A DNA stretch of 64,000 nucleotides from Pseudomonas sp. JM0905a (GTDB lineage: Bacteria; Pseudomonadota; Gammaproteobacteria; Pseudomonadales; Pseudomonadaceae): assembly GCF_014700075.1 (NCBI RefSeq), contig NZ_JACXBU010000009.1, forward strand, positions 62,001-126,000, given 5' to 3'. The notes below the pieces were generated by a model. The model had not been told where the DNA came from, searched no databases, and saw only the letters and a program-made list of their open reading frames with translations. Made by a program: the position numbers and the translations under genes. This document shows positions 16,315-22,178 of this stretch, one piece after another. Numbering within the stretch: the stretch's first letter is position 1; every line of letters begins with the position of its first letter.

Positions 16315-17709
16315 ATGTCCAGAACCACACCCAGGATTGCGTTACTTGGCGCTGGTCCGTATCGATTCCCCGGCATTGAGCTGGAATGCTACAACGATCT
16401 TGCGAGCCTGCAGGGCAATTCCGAAGCCGATGTGCTGTTGGTCGACCTGCCGGGCGAACAGGCGGGCCCGGCCTTGCGGAGCCTGCGCCTCGATCCCCGC
16501 TATCGCTTCAGTCTGATCTACTGCTGCCAGGACCAGGATCCCTGGTGCATTGCCCTGGGTGACGGCCCGCCGCCGGCCGACCCGGGTGCGATCACGCCCC
16601 TCTGGCGCCTCTGGCGCGAGCGCCTTGGCCTTTTCAATCGCGGAGCCGCCCCTGAACGCTTCGAGGAACGGGTGATGGCGTGGCTCTGGCTGCGCTCACG
16701 CGGTGAAGTCCTTGCAGTGCGTGATGCCGGCGTGCCCCAGCATTACCGCTATCCGCTGCTGGAAGTCCTCGGTAACGAAGAGACCATCAATCAATTCTCC
16801 TGGCTACAGCTGATGAGCCAGCAGGGCTGGCTGGAGGAGGGGGCACTGCAGGACCGGCTGCGCTTGTGCACCAGCTGTGGGTCGGGCCGTCTCAACTACG
16901 TGGATGTCTGCCCCGAGTGCCAGGCCCTGGACATCGGTCGCCAGCCTTCGCTGCATTGCTTCACCTGCGGGCACGTCGGCCCCCAGGAACACTTCCTCAA
17001 GGAAGGCGTGCTGCTCTGCCCGAACTGCCTGACCCGTCTTCGCCATATTGGCAGCGACTACGACCGTCCGCTGGAGAACTACCGCTGCCGCAACTGCCAG
17101 GCCTTTTTCGTCGATGCCGCGGTGGATGCGCGCTGCCTGGACTGCGGCCAGTCCCACGCGCCCGACAAGCTGCGCGTGCGCGAGATACGCCACTTCCGCC
17201 TGGCCGAGGCCGGGCGCCTGAGGTGCCGGGAAGGCTTCGGCGCCGGGGCGATGAACATCGAGCGCTTCGGCAGCCTGAACTTGCTGCCACGCCAGGCTTT
17301 CCTCGATCTGCTGAACTGGCAGCTGCAACTGACGCGACGGCACCGGGATCCGGCCTTCTCGCTACTCGGTCTGCGTTTCGTCAACCTGTTGGAAACCCTC
17401 TCCCAACTCGGCGAGATGCGCGGCCACGCGCTGGTAGACGGGCTGGTGGAGCGCCTGCAGGAAGCCGTGCGGGAAACCGATCGTTGTTGCCGGCTGAGCG
17501 AGGAGGTGCTCTGGCTGCTGATGCCGCACACCGATGCCACCGGCATGGAAGTGGTGCGCAAGCGCCTGGTCAAGGGCGCGGAGCGCCTGACCGCTGGACA
17601 GGCGACGCCCATCGAGGTGCGGTTGGCCGTCTTCACGGCTCCCGATGATCAGCAGGAACAGGAAGACGCTGCCCTGCTGCTGGCGCGTCTGGGCGGACAG
17701 TTGGGCTGA
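16315..17709 (+). CDS. Pseudo-receiver / TackOD1 zinc-ribbon / degenerate GGDEF protein
   Basis: A soluble 464-residue protein with three parts. Residues 1-85 look like a receiver fold without the phosphorylation site (DVLLVDLPGEQ at 39-49). Residues 140-280 carry six CxxC pairs (185/188, 199/202, 215/218, 235/238, 258/261, 274/277) with CGHVGPQEHF and IGSDYDRP between them, the layout I know from the TackOD1 thaumarchaeal output domain. Residues 310-455 are a GGDEF fold in which the active-site GG(D/E)EF is replaced by SEEVL (395-399), while RETD (386-389) keeps the exact five-residue spacing of the c-di-GMP inhibitory site. This suggests a c-di-GMP receptor without cyclase activity, as in PelD. 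It leads a four-gene operon with a 2-nt gap to the glycosyltransferase. The RBS is weak. Confidence 0.82.
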   Translation: MSRTTPRIALLGAGPYRFPGIELECYNDLASLQGNSEADVLLVDLPGEQAGPALRSLRLDPRYRFSLIYCCQDQDPWCIALGDGPPPADPGAITPLWRLWRERLGLFNRGAAPERFEERVMAWLWLRSRGEVLAVRDAGVPQHYRYPLLEVLGNEETINQFSWLQLMSQQGWLEEGALQDRLRLCTSCGSGRLNYVDVCPECQALDIGRQPSLHCFTCGHVGPQEHFLKEGVLLCPNCLTRLRHIGSDYDRPLENYRCRNCQAFFVDAAVDARCLDCGQSHAPDKLRVREIRHFRLAEAGRLRCREGFGAGAMNIERFGSLNLLPRQAFLDLLNWQLQLTRRHRDPAFSLLGLRFVNLLETLSQLGEMRGHALVDGLVERLQEAVRETDRCCRLSEEVLWLLMPHTDATGMEVVRKRLVKGAERLTAGQATPIEVRLAVFTAPDDQQEQEDAALLLARLGGQLG

Positions 17710-17711
17710 GC

Positions 17712-19040
17712 ATGGAAGCTTTTGTCGAGCAGTGGCTGCTGCTCCTCGGCGAGTTCGCCAGGAGCGATGGCATTCTGCAGGGTGCCTTCATGTTGCTGCC
17801 GGCCTTCCTGCTGCTGGAGCTGCCGCTCAACCTGCTGGTGCTGATCGGCGTCCTGCGCTGGTTCGTCCGCAAGCCGTTCGAGTTGCCCCAGCAGAGCACC
17901 TATCGGCCGCGGGTGTCCTGCATCATCACCTGCTACAGCGAGGGTCGGGACGTCCAGACGACCCTGCGCAGCCTGTGTGAGCAGACCTACCCCGGCTACA
18001 TCGAGATGATTCCGGTGGTGGACGGAGCGGCGGTGAACCAGCCCACCATGCAGGCCGTGCGGGACTTTCGCGTCGATCCGCAGCTCTATCCGCGACGCCT
18101 GTTGCGACCCATCGCCAAGTGGCAGCGCGGTGGCCGGGTCTCCTCCCTGAACGCGGGGCTGGCGCACTGCACCGGCGAAGTGGTGATGGCCCTGGACGGC
18201 GATACCTCCTTCGACAACGACATGGTCAGCCAGATGGTCCGTCATTTCGCCGACCCGGACGTCCCGGCCGTGGCAGGAAGCCTGCGAGTGCGCAATGCCC
18301 GGGCTTCGCTCACCACCGCCATGCAGGCGCTGGAGTATCAGTTGTCGATCCACATGGCCAAGATCGGCCTCAGCGAATGGAACCTGGTGAATAACGTATC
18401 CGGCGCGTTCGGCGCGTTTCGCCGCAGTTTCCTCGACAAGATCGGCGGCTGGGACACCCACACCGCGGAAGACCTGGACATCACCCTGCGGATCAAGAAC
18501 TACTTCGGCCGCAGGCCCCTGCGCATTCCCTTCGAGCCCGGCGCCATCGGCCATACCGACGCACCCGTGACCTTCCTGCAGTTCCTCAAGCAGCGCCTGC
18601 GCTGGGACGGTGACCTGTACTTCCTCTACATTCGCAAGCACCGGCACAGCTTCAATCCGCGCCTGCTGGGCTGGCCGAACTTCCTGATGACCCTGATCAC
18701 CGGCTTCTTCTTTCAGCTGGTACTGCCTTTCATCATCGCCGGCTACTGCCTGGCCGGGCCCCTGGTGCTGCCCTGGCCGCGCTTCCTGGCCCTGGCCGCG
18801 CTCATCTATCTGGTCTATCTGGGCATGACGCTGTTGCTCTATGTGGCCATGCTGGCCCTGGTGTCCGAGCGGCCGCGCATGGACCTGCGATTGTTCCCTG
18901 TGGTCTTCGTCTTCCCGCTGTTCATGCTGGTCATGCGCATGTGGAGCGCGGTGGCCATGCTCAACGAGGCCCTGCGTCGCGGCCATGAGGAAACCAGCAT
19001 GGCGCCCTGGTGGGTGCTGCGTAGGGCCAAGAGGTTCTGA
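17712..19040 (+). CDS. Processive family 2 glycosyltransferase (polysaccharide synthase-like)
   Basis: A 442-residue inner-membrane GT2 of the BcsA/PgaC/HasA architecture. One transmembrane segment lies at about 25-52, the cytoplasmic GT-A domain at 65-310, and three or four helices at about 320-415. Catalytic motifs of processive enzymes are all present: DGD at 162-164, the base motif TAED at 251-254 and QRLRW at 294-298. There is no PilZ domain, so c-di-GMP control would have to come through another protein, such as the degenerate GGDEF protein just upstream. It is separated by 4 nt from the TolC-like gene. The sugar donor cannot be deduced. Confidence 0.9.
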   Translation: MEAFVEQWLLLLGEFARSDGILQGAFMLLPAFLLLELPLNLLVLIGVLRWFVRKPFELPQQSTYRPRVSCIITCYSEGRDVQTTLRSLCEQTYPGYIEMIPVVDGAAVNQPTMQAVRDFRVDPQLYPRRLLRPIAKWQRGGRVSSLNAGLAHCTGEVVMALDGDTSFDNDMVSQMVRHFADPDVPAVAGSLRVRNARASLTTAMQALEYQLSIHMAKIGLSEWNLVNNVSGAFGAFRRSFLDKIGGWDTHTAEDLDITLRIKNYFGRRPLRIPFEPGAIGHTDAPVTFLQFLKQRLRWDGDLYFLYIRKHRHSFNPRLLGWPNFLMTLITGFFFQLVLPFIIAGYCLAGPLVLPWPRFLALAALIYLVYLGMTLLLYVAMLALVSERPRMDLRLFPVVFVFPLFMLVMRMWSAVAMLNEALRRGHEETSMAPWWVLRRAKRF

Positions 19041-19044
19041 GTTC

Positions 19045-21129
19045 ATGATTCGTCCATTTCTTTTCTGCGCACTGCTGCTGGCCGCCGGCATGGTCCGGGC
19101 CGACGTGCTGCCGTTGGCCCAGGTGCTGGACCGCGCCGAAGACGGGGCCGCGCTGCAGGCCAAGGCGGCCGAGCTGCGGGCGCTGGATGCACTCAAGGAA
19201 CAGCGCGAAGCCGAGGCGGGCTGGCAGTGGTTCGGCTCTGGCAGTACCGGGCACTACCACGAACTGGTGACCGAAGACCTGCGTGACGACTATTACGGGC
19301 GTGACCTGGCCCTCGGCCTGCGCCACCCGCTACTCGGCAGCCTGCGTCGGCAAGTGCAGGCCGTATCGGCGGTGGAGCTTGAGCAGCAGCGGCAGCAGGC
19401 GCAGCGCCTGTTGCGCCTGGCGGAGCAACGGCTGGCCTTACGCAGCGCCTACGCCGACTGGTGGCGTGCCGAGCAGGAAGAGCGCTGGTGCAAGGGGCTG
19501 CTGCCCGCATCCCAGACGGCTCGCGAACGCCTGGCCCGGCGTCAGCAGGGCGGCTGGCTGCTGCCTTCGCAGGCGCGGTTGCTGGACGGCCAATGGCAGG
19601 GTCTCCAGCAGCGTTGCCGGCAGAGCGCGCTCCTGGTGGACGACACCCGCGCCAGCCTGGCCGGGTTGGCGGATATGGAGATTGGTCCTGGTCAGCAGGC
19701 CGAAGCGGAATCGCTGTCGACGCAAGTGTTGCCGCTGTCCAATTGGCGTCAGGCCCTGGAGGGGCACCCGCGCCTGCAGGAGAGACAGGACGAACTGCGC
19801 CACGCCGAGCGCAATCGGCAATCGCCCTGGTACGAGAGCGTCGACTCAAGCTTCAGCGTTGCGCAGAGCTACGAGTCACGCAGCGGCGCCAGCAAGAGTG
19901 GCGACGGGCTGGTGGCCGCCCTCAGTCTGTCCGCGCCCTTCGACCTGATGAACTACGGCCGGGCCCGCAATCGCGAAGGTGAGGCGCGCCATCAAGCCGC
20001 CCTGGCGCAGCTGGAGGCCGAGCGCCAGCAATTGCTCCAGTCCCTTGGGCAGACCCTGCAGGCCCAACGCCAGGCAGCGCTGGACCTGGATCGAGAGCGC
20101 GAGCAGTTGGCCGTTGCAGACCAGGCCCTGCGGGAGCAGCGGCTGCGCGCCGAGCGCTCGGTTTCCGAGAGCCCGGCCGAGGAACTGGCTGTGGAACTTG
20201 AACGCTACAACAGCGGATTGCGCCTGATTGCCGCCTGGCACGCTGCCTGGCTGCGTGAAGCGGCCCTGCGTCTGTTCGTCGACGATGACCAGGCCCTGGC
20301 TGGCCTGCTGGGGCCGCAACGTCTCGACTGGACGGCCCCGGGTGTGGTTGGGGCGGCGTCGAAGGGCGTCGGCTCGACGGGCTGGAGCCAGGGTGTCTAC
20401 CTGTGGAAAAGCGGAGCATTGCTGAATCCCGCGACTCGTCACGCGGAACTGCGCGAACTGCGCCGCGCCGGCATGACGCGGTTGTACCTGGGGCTCGATG
20501 GTGGGCAGGTGGCCGACATCCCGGCCCTGCGCAAGCAACTGCAGGACACCCTTGATGACGCCCACGCTCAAGGCGTGCAGGTGGCCCTGCTGCTGGGGGA
20601 TCCCGCTTGGCTGGAGCCCGGTGGGCGCCAGGGTTTGCTGGATCTGCTCGGTGGGCTCAAGGGGCTGCCGTTCGATGCCCTGCACCTGGATCTTGAGGTG
20701 GAGCAACTCGGCTGGCCGGTGCCCGACCGCCGCTTGCGGGACTGGCTGGACACCCTGGGCGCCGTGTCCGGGGTCGTGTCCTGGCCGCTGGAGCTGTCCA
20801 GCCATCCCCGCTGGTTCGCCGAGCCAGTCGCCGGTGCGACTTGCGTGCCCTGTGCCCTGCCGAAGCGCGGCGTGCGGCAGGTCGACCTGATGATCTACAC
20901 CCGCAATCCCGCTCGCAGCGCCGAACTGGCGGAATCCATCGCCCGCCGCTGGCCGGCGCTGCGCTTCCGTCTGGCCCAGAGTGTCGAGCCCCAGCTACCG
21001 ACTGAGGAATCCTGGGCCGGGGCCTCGCGCACGCAGTTGCGGGAACAGCTCGAGCGTTGGCGCACGCGCCTGCAGCCCGCCGGTATCACCGGCGTCGACT
21101 GGCAGGATTGGACCCATTTTCCCCGTTGA
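19045..21129 (+). CDS. TolC-like outer-membrane factor fused to a C-terminal TIM-barrel/glycosidase-like domain
   Basis: A 694-residue exported protein (signal peptide 1-19, cleaved after VRA). Residues 20-420 look like one outer-membrane efflux protein: long helices with heptads (about 100-210 and 310-410) separated by a strand-rich stretch (VAALSLSAPFDLMNYGRARN, 289-308). After about residue 445 it changes to alternating strands and helices: VYLWKSGALL, TRLYLGLDGG, VQVALLLGD, DALHLDLEVEQ, VDLMIYTRN. The segment L546-E553 (HLDLEVE) resembles the catalytic strand of barrel glycoside hydrolases (HLDIEP-like). The frame is continuous, so this is one polypeptide. No BcsC/PgaA-like TPR is seen. 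Start 19045 follows the GT2 stop by 4 nt. Confidence 0.8.
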   Translation: MIRPFLFCALLLAAGMVRADVLPLAQVLDRAEDGAALQAKAAELRALDALKEQREAEAGWQWFGSGSTGHYHELVTEDLRDDYYGRDLALGLRHPLLGSLRRQVQAVSAVELEQQRQQAQRLLRLAEQRLALRSAYADWWRAEQEERWCKGLLPASQTARERLARRQQGGWLLPSQARLLDGQWQGLQQRCRQSALLVDDTRASLAGLADMEIGPGQQAEAESLSTQVLPLSNWRQALEGHPRLQERQDELRHAERNRQSPWYESVDSSFSVAQSYESRSGASKSGDGLVAALSLSAPFDLMNYGRARNREGEARHQAALAQLEAERQQLLQSLGQTLQAQRQAALDLDREREQLAVADQALREQRLRAERSVSESPAEELAVELERYNSGLRLIAAWHAAWLREAALRLFVDDDQALAGLLGPQRLDWTAPGVVGAASKGVGSTGWSQGVYLWKSGALLNPATRHAELRELRRAGMTRLYLGLDGGQVADIPALRKQLQDTLDDAHAQGVQVALLLGDPAWLEPGGRQGLLDLLGGLKGLPFDALHLDLEVEQLGWPVPDRRLRDWLDTLGAVSGVVSWPLELSSHPRWFAEPVAGATCVPCALPKRGVRQVDLMIYTRNPARSAELAESIARRWPALRFRLAQSVEPQLPTEESWAGASRTQLREQLERWRTRLQPAGITGVDWQDWTHFPR

Positions 21130-21137
21130 GTCAGGCC

Positions 21138-22178
21138 ATGAAGATTCGATTCTCCAGCCCCAAGGAACAGCAGCCCACTCAGGAGCAGGGGCTCAAGGTG
21201 CTCTACGCGCCCGGCAAGCGTCTGGCCTTCAAGCTGCGCTGGTACCTGATTCTGCTCGCGGTCACCAGTCCGCTGTTGTTCCTGGTCGGGCGCGAGTTCC
21301 TCGGCTTCTGGCTGATCGAGGCGCCGGTGCAGTTGCACCTGCCGTCCACCGAGCTGCGGGCGCGGGAGGCTGGACAGGTGGAACGCGTGCTGGTCAGGCC
21401 CGGCGACCGGGTGGAGGCCGGCCAGTTGCTGGTGAAGATGGATAACCCCGAGTGGCGTGCTCGCCTTGCCCTGCTCGGTGACCCCATCGCCCAGGCGCGG
21501 CGACCTGCCGGGAATCGACCCTTGCCGGAGCAGGAGCGCCAGGCCCTGGAACGCCTGCTGGCCAGCGCGGAGAGCCGCCTGGGACGCCTGCGCGGGCTGC
21601 TCGCCGCCGGTGCCGCGACCCGGGGTGAGGTGCAGCTGGCCCAGGACGAGCGGGACAGGCGCCAGCGTGACCTGGTGCAATTCGAGCGGCGAGAGTCGCT
21701 ACCGGTGGACGACACTCTGGAGCGTCAACGCCGACTGGAAAGCGACTGGCTGCAAGCACGTTTACATGGGCTGGAGCTGAAGGCCGGCGAGTCCGGAGTG
21801 ATCAGCGAGGTGCTGGTGGATGAGGGCGAAAACGTCGGCCCCGGGACGCCGCTGATGCGCCTGCAGCGTCTGGGCGACGCCGAACTGTGGGTCTATCTCG
21901 ACCCGCGGGATGCTGCCTATGCCTCTCCGGGCCAGCCCTTCCGGCTGCGCCTGCCGGATGGCACCTGGCTGCCTGCCGAGGTGGTGCGCATGGTGGAGGA
22001 CGCCGCTCCTGTGCCGGTCGAGCTGCGCGAGGCATTCAGCGCCCCGAGCCGCAACCTGCGCTTGCTGGCGCGGGTAAAAGGGGAGTGGCCGGCGTTCTGG
22101 CGTGTGGACCGCCTGGGGCTGAAGGCGCGCTTTCCCCATCGCTGGCGCTGGCTCGACAGCTGGGCCAGCGATAGCTGA
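21138..22178 (+). CDS. HlyD-type periplasmic adaptor (membrane fusion protein)
   Basis: A 346-residue inner-membrane adaptor. A cytoplasmic tail of about 34 residues is followed by a transmembrane helix (35-57). Two halves of a lipoyl/barrel-sandwich domain lie around residues 65-103 (REAGQVERVLVRPGDRVEAG) and 211-243 (GESGVISEVLVDEGENVG), with a helical hairpin between them (about 128-205) and a beta-barrel domain after (WVYLDPRDAAYASPGQPF). This is the family that links TolC-like channels to inner-membrane partners. No ABC or RND transporter gene is near; the partner is more likely the GT2 synthase. It starts 8 nt after the TolC-like stop and ends the operon. Confidence 0.85.
   Translation: MKIRFSSPKEQQPTQEQGLKVLYAPGKRLAFKLRWYLILLAVTSPLLFLVGREFLGFWLIEAPVQLHLPSTELRAREAGQVERVLVRPGDRVEAGQLLVKMDNPEWRARLALLGDPIAQARRPAGNRPLPEQERQALERLLASAESRLGRLRGLLAAGAATRGEVQLAQDERDRRQRDLVQFERRESLPVDDTLERQRRLESDWLQARLHGLELKAGESGVISEVLVDEGENVGPGTPLMRLQRLGDAELWVYLDPRDAAYASPGQPFRLRLPDGTWLPAEVVRMVEDAAPVPVELREAFSAPSRNLRLLARVKGEWPAFWRVDRLGLKARFPHRWRWLDSWASDS

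Follow-up and report, generated by a model that had tools for sequence, protein, structure and literature searches.

The stretch analysed here, 64,000 nucleotides of Pseudomonas sp. JM0905a (contig NZ_JACXBU010000009.1, positions 62,001 to 126,000; hereafter the window), carries four genes packed head to tail on the + strand at 16315-22178, separated by gaps of 2, 4, and 8 nt. An earlier note, made from the sequence alone, had described the same packing, with which the open reading frame (ORF) coordinates agree, and had named the products as a TackOD1/degenerate GGDEF protein, a processive family 2 glycosyltransferase (GT2) with DGD, TAED and QRLRW motifs, a TolC-like protein with a 'hydrolase-like tail', and an HlyD adaptor. 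Pfam supported all four family calls, the GT2 motifs proved to be present and conserved, and the tail could be refined to a complete (beta/alpha)8 barrel. The four genes are:

16315-17709, + strand: gene 1, ORF of 464 amino acids (aa); MxdA-type effector with a receiver-like N-terminus (residues 1-105), a TackOD1 zinc-ribbon domain and a degenerate GGDEF domain
17712-19040, + strand: gene 2, ORF of 442 aa; MxdB-type processive GT2 synthase
19045-21129, + strand: gene 3, ORF of 694 aa; outer-membrane channel of the TolC family, to which a TIM-barrel domain resembling glycoside hydrolases is fused at the C-terminus
21138-22178, + strand: gene 4, ORF of 346 aa; MxdC-type HlyD/membrane-fusion adaptor

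Three of these genes have relatives in the mxdABCD operon of Shewanella, described as comprising a gene tied to cyclic di-GMP (c-di-GMP) whose function is unknown, a second encoding a GT2, an efflux-like third and a hypothetical fourth (PMC3691769), with Mxd needed for three-dimensional biofilm in Shewanella oneidensis (PMC3691769, PMC7666153, PMC11395469). We located the mxd locus through the published primer Pmxd-fw-150, which matched exactly in 1 of 129 Shewanella genomes; the gene just downstream of the match contains TackOD1 (E = 1.6e-71). Before that, a Shewanella 16S primer had picked out genome G465 as belonging to the genus. Compared with the proteins of strain MR-1, gene 1 aligned with MxdA (35% identity over 430 aa, E = 3e-76), gene 2, directly downstream, with MxdB (53% over 416 aa, E = 3e-157), and gene 4 with MxdC (25% over 362 aa, E = 3e-22). 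The effector, GT2 and HlyD adaptor are thus homologous and alike in relative order, and MxdA, too, has lost GGDEF and keeps an I-site (RVTD). The differences are that the TolC-TIM-barrel gene, which has no counterpart at the MR-1 locus, is inserted between GT2 and HlyD and shifts the latter, that MxdC is only 25% identical, and that MxdD, a protein of 129 aa in MR-1 which we count as accessory, has no counterpart in the window operon.

Since genes 1, 2, and 4 are homologous to mxdABC in order, the window operon reads as one of mxd type that carries an additional gene, and on homology and gene order it can be solidly assigned to the mxdABC core type rather than to complete mxdABCD. This does not bear out the suggestion of the earlier note that no described system has the complete set; its broader picture, in which an exopolysaccharide synthase of the GT2 family responds to c-di-GMP and has an efflux-type conduit, was supported, and the set is conserved well beyond close relatives. 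What remains undescribed in the literature searched is the TolC-TIM-barrel fusion inside an mxd operon, and no Pseudomonas mxd operon was evident in the titles and abstracts of papers naming mxdABCD.

Gene 1 matched the Pfam models TackOD1 (E = 4.9e-65) and GGDEF (E = 5e-8), and contains the following features:

16651-17202, + strand: TackOD1 domain, residues 113-296, whose 12 invariant Cys form six CxxC pairs
17470-17481, + strand: I-site RETD, R386-D389, the putative c-di-GMP-binding site; its partner R417 lies at 17563-17565
17497-17511, + strand: GGDEF catalytic position, which in the alignment reads SEEVL and is not catalytic

The degenerate state of the GGDEF domain, as first noted from the letters, was borne out: SEEVL stands at the motif position and the intact RETD lies exactly 5 residues upstream. 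Across 67 aligned gene 1-type proteins, the GGDEF motif was intact in none, and the RxxD I-site was kept in 63 (R386 in 63/67, D389 in 64/67, R or K at position 417 in 64/67); two of the I-site exceptions (L081 and L087) are broken or split reading frames. The spacing of 31 between R386 and R417 equals the distance from R359 to R390 in the I-site of PleD, and the best fold matches of the region were GGDEF structures, including c-di-GMP-bound PleD. MxdA itself is reported to bind c-di-GMP in the statements of PMC7666153 and PMC11395469 that cite Gambari 2019. With GGDEF lost and the RxxD I-site retained, a c-di-GMP gate is well supported, and gene 1 would be the effector that gates the synthase, for which gating of the GT2 in trans, PelD-style, is by analogy the simplest reading. 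In keeping RxxD without the GGDEF motif, gene 1 falls among PelD-type effectors, a functional likeness and not a homology.

Three homologues deserve separate mention. MxdA of MR-1 (L149:7382-8833) reads TRDGL at the GGDEF position, and the string NVDEF, which older papers reportedly took as its degenerate GGDEF motif, lies well upstream. A TackOD1-GGDEF protein with an I-site but without a GT2 or HlyD neighbour was found at L076:3558-5012. On a Rhodobacteraceae plasmid (L097:4553-9175), an mxd-type operon with galE attached encodes an effector that aligns with PETA; its I-site is lost, and gating may therefore differ there.

Gene 2 matched Glyco_tranf_2_3 (E = 1.8e-20) and has about five membrane spans, conserved DGD (residues 162-164) and TAED (251-254) motifs, and no Pfam match to a PilZ domain. 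The third conserved motif is placed as follows:

18591-18605, + strand: QRLRW motif of processive GT2, residues 294-298, identified by motif conservation

Its nearest NCBIfam model is PgaC, at 130.7 bits against a cut-off of 422.3. We ruled out a poly-N-acetylglucosamine (PNAG) synthase for gene 2, its score being far below this equivalog cut-off, which no GT2 of this genome passed. Gene 4 matched HlyD_3 (E = 3.5e-13) and has one N-terminal membrane span. The operon contains no gene for an ABC, RND or MFS pump, which leaves the GT2 as the only inner-membrane partner for HlyD and TolC.

Gene 3 starts with a signal-peptide-like segment and matched OEP in Pfam (E = 1e-7). Its AlphaFold model (mean pLDDT 85.7, pTM 0.57), built from an alignment that left out the row of plasmid pKAM329_3, predicts two parts:

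19105-20295, + strand: TolC-fold part, residues 21-417, aligned by VIA-align to TolC 1ek9 (Z 24.9, rmsd, i.e. root-mean-square deviation, 5.8, 387 residues)
20374-21126, + strand: TIM-barrel tail, residues 444-694, an eight-stranded barrel in the predicted structure
20689-20697, + strand: D549-x-E551 closing strand 4 (HLDLE), a putative catalytic pair, both invariant in 40/40
20890-20898, + strand: M616-x-Y618 closing strand 6, a GH18-like position, both invariant in 40/40

Foldseek supported the TolC fold (E = 1e-14), and with this fold and an OEP domain gene 3 belongs to the TolC/OEP family. The TIM barrel, like the TolC fold, is a prediction, and so is the placing of the conserved acidic pair within it; the 40 sequences compared come from operons of layouts A and C (defined below), with domain identity as low as 16-22%. 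Its fold was closest to Cwp19 (5oq2, Z 18.6), GH18 chitinase (6k7z, Z 17.3) and the PgaB hydrolase domain (4f9j, Z 16.8), differences of about 1 being ties, and the barrel profile matched one solved chain, 10yv of Cellulomonas fimi (E = 2.7e-8). The GH18 motif is DxxDxDxE; strand 4 of the barrel reads DxxHxDxE, in which the second Asp has become His and D549 and E551 are invariant. The C-terminus of TolC is on the periplasmic side, which is where a barrel fused to it would be exposed as well.

The earlier note had asked whether the neighbourhood is conserved beyond close relatives, and it is. Searching genome contigs for gene 3 returned 25 loci, which belong to Pseudomonas, Stutzerimonas, Ralstonia, and one Comamonadaceae metagenome-assembled genome, all 25 with the order GT2-gene 3-HlyD and 24 with gene 1 as well (the contig of the last begins close to GT2). 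The gaps were mostly -4 to 17 nt, and the four-gene order was kept at identities as low as about 45-50%, a conservation of the neighbourhood far beyond chance. Among 96 relatives, 16 had a gene 3 match, three of them without the full set (G005, barrel only; G042, a chance-like match; G046, a channel-barrel protein without the other genes nearby), which makes the operon patchy. The complete operon also lies on the 29-kb mobilizable Aeromonas caviae plasmid pKAM329_3 (L019, 5280-11111). Its GT2 and the one of Stutzerimonas are about 0.07 changes per site apart, a closeness that suggests recent transfer, with the plasmid as carrier of a mobile biofilm-type operon.

Among 369 Gammaproteobacteria genomes, 19 have a TackOD1 match over the cut-off, as do 24 of 346 genomes of a second order (that of Shewanella). 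A GT2 gene adjoins the TackOD1 gene in 14/16 of the neighbourhoods from the former, which span several families (L076 and L090 being the exceptions), and in 20/20 loci of the latter. Three layouts can be told apart:

Layout A: effector-GT2-channel/barrel-HlyD; the window operon
Layout B: effector-GT2-HlyD; mxd, Plesiomonas, Photobacterium, Rhodobacteraceae
Layout C: barrel gene-HlyD-effector-GT2; L080, L082, L084, L085, L089, L134, L146

In the GT2 tree, gene 2 and MxdB fall into one set, apart from layout C, which forms a single well-supported, distant set; layout A, for which the tree needs two changes, may have arisen once or twice. Layout C is a permuted operon with a very divergent GT2; its first gene encodes about 630-700 aa and ends in the same barrel. 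Comparison of its N-terminal 450 residues with the TolC part by hhalign found no detectable similarity, and we therefore do not assign a TolC channel to layout C. Directly after two layout B operons lies a PAS-GGDEF-EAL gene (L086:7167-9398, L088:6997-9069), possibly a dedicated source or sink of c-di-GMP.

The gene set and its order, the homology to mxdABC, and the loss of the GGDEF motif with retention of the I-site are solid observations. We consider it likely that the window holds an Mxd-type operon in which a c-di-GMP-switched GT2 exopolysaccharide synthase exports its product through HlyD and a dedicated TolC, with the barrel trimming or clearing the polymer. In such a system, c-di-GMP would bind the I-site in the degenerate GGDEF domain of the cytoplasmic gene 1 protein, and the loaded effector would switch on an inner-membrane GT2 that has no PilZ domain of its own. 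The GT2 would polymerise and translocate a sugar chain, and the HlyD adaptor would dock the synthase to the dedicated TolC, so that the tripartite conduit would have the synthase where an efflux pump normally sits. The TIM barrel, expected at the periplasmic end of the channel, would cut the polymer, either trimming it for release or clearing misrouted chains, a role that can be likened to that of the BcsZ, AlgL, PelA, and PgaB hydrolases of other systems. We infer, then, a secreted polysaccharide as the product, its exit through this TolC, and its cleavage by the barrel. Whether such operons make up a separate export class, in which a glycosyltransferase replaces the pump of an efflux-type tripartite channel, the duct carries its own polymer-cutting enzyme and TackOD1-GGDEF is the dedicated switch, an outline shared by gammaproteobacterial Mxd operons, is a question on which we are evenly divided.

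Several points weigh against this reading. Layout B operons, mxd included, work without this channel, which is therefore not obligatory for the family. The glycoside-hydrolase models of Pfam and NCBIfam, GH18 included, gave no match to the barrel, and the TackOD1 region of gene 1 is poorly modelled, with low AlphaFold confidence in its middle. The mxd literature searched reports no isolated polymer, and earlier work, as cited in PMC3691769, has MxdA controlling c-di-GMP levels indirectly, so that its role may exceed that of a receptor.

The best-surviving alternative concerns the cargo. HlyD and TolC families mostly serve efflux pumps, and among NCBIfam models gene 4 scores best against one for RND adaptors, without reaching the cut-off; the GT2 and its switch could thus work as proposed next to a TolC-HlyD pair that exports something else, such as a lipid or small molecule, and is merely co-regulated. 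We regard this as unlikely, given that HlyD accompanies TackOD1-GT2 even where TolC is missing, that the operon is without a pump gene, and that its TolC is fused to a glycan-type barrel. Less probable still is a GT2 that makes a cell-envelope glycan or glycolipid instead of a secreted polymer, with the barrel acting on envelope glycan. Cwp19, a peptidoglycan hydrolase, is the barrel's best fold match, ahead of GH18 and PgaB, though differences of about 1 in Z count as ties; set against it are the processive motifs of the GT2, PgaC as its nearest model, and the mxd biofilm phenotypes (PMC3691769, PMC7666153). That gene 1 is an active diguanylate cyclase feeding the synthase, rather than a c-di-GMP sensor, is scarcely credible and was rejected, since the 'diguanylate cyclase' annotation on the Aeromonas and Plesiomonas plasmids and the GGDEF fold are countered by the loss of the catalytic motif in all 67 homologues.

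The preferred reading of a switched synthase with its own export channel has partial parallels in other systems. A GT2-HlyD-TolC route, XcsA-XcsB-TolC with the endoglucanase XcsC, was proposed for cyanobacterial cellulose (Maeda 2018, as summarised in PMC12430437); its genes do not share an operon, and validation of the route is noted there as lacking. The proposed logic of GT2, HlyD, TolC and hydrolase is the same, likened by description only, but XcsA carries its own PilZ domain, for which the window GT2 has no match, TolC is encoded elsewhere in the genome, and XcsC is a separate protein. The rhizobial mixed-linkage glucan system BgsB-BgsA likewise pairs a c-di-GMP-activated GT2 with an HlyD-like partner, but there c-di-GMP binds the C-terminus of the synthase, and the two-gene operon has no effector, TolC or hydrolase (PMC5567048, PMC9495663).

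PelD is a membrane protein with a GAF domain, and the glycosyltransferase of Pel is PelF. PelD shares with gene 1 a degenerate GGDEF domain with an RxxD I-site as c-di-GMP receptor for a polysaccharide (PMC2170427, PMC7112168); it has no TackOD1, and Pel is exported through PelB/PelC. The PNAG system PgaABCD offers the nearest NCBIfam model to the GT2 and, in PgaB, a hydrolase domain of similar fold, whereas the window operon has no PgaA porin with tetratricopeptide repeats (TPR), no PgaD and no deacetylase, and its GT2 lies below the PgaC cut-off. The contrast drawn in the earlier note with Bcs, Pga, Alg, and Pel also holds: these use a TPR scaffold and a beta-barrel porin, whereas the outer-membrane component in the window operon is of OEP/TolC type.

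The mxd literature searched names no outer-membrane exit and describes MxdD as a conserved hypothetical protein. Gene 3 would supply the exit that mxd lacks in its own operon. With this candidate channel and a polymer-acting enzyme encoded together, TolC-type export of a synthase-made polymer can be tested directly. The role of TackOD1 has been described as obscure (PMC5847659). For the bacterial domain a function is now suggested: nearly all copies examined adjoin a GT2 and are fused to a motif-less GGDEF domain that keeps its I-site.

Around the operon, a promoter scan found no sigma-70-like site and a terminator scan gave a count not above that in shuffles. Upstream lies a TetR regulator and downstream, on the opposite strand, an alpha/beta hydrolase.

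Were the barrel to work by the mechanism of GH18 enzymes, N-acetylhexosamine would be expected in the polymer, a speculative identification of the sugar. In two Pseudomonas-family genomes a barrel homologue adjoins a membrane-anchored CE4 polysaccharide deacetylase (L093:5996-8982 and L094:3149-7251), with the barrel standing alone in G005 and fused to a channel in G046, and neither the GT2 nor the HlyD of this system in the vicinity; this association fits an N-acetylhexosamine polymer. A GH16 glycoside hydrolase gene after one layout B operon (L079:7444-8379) points rather to other glycans.

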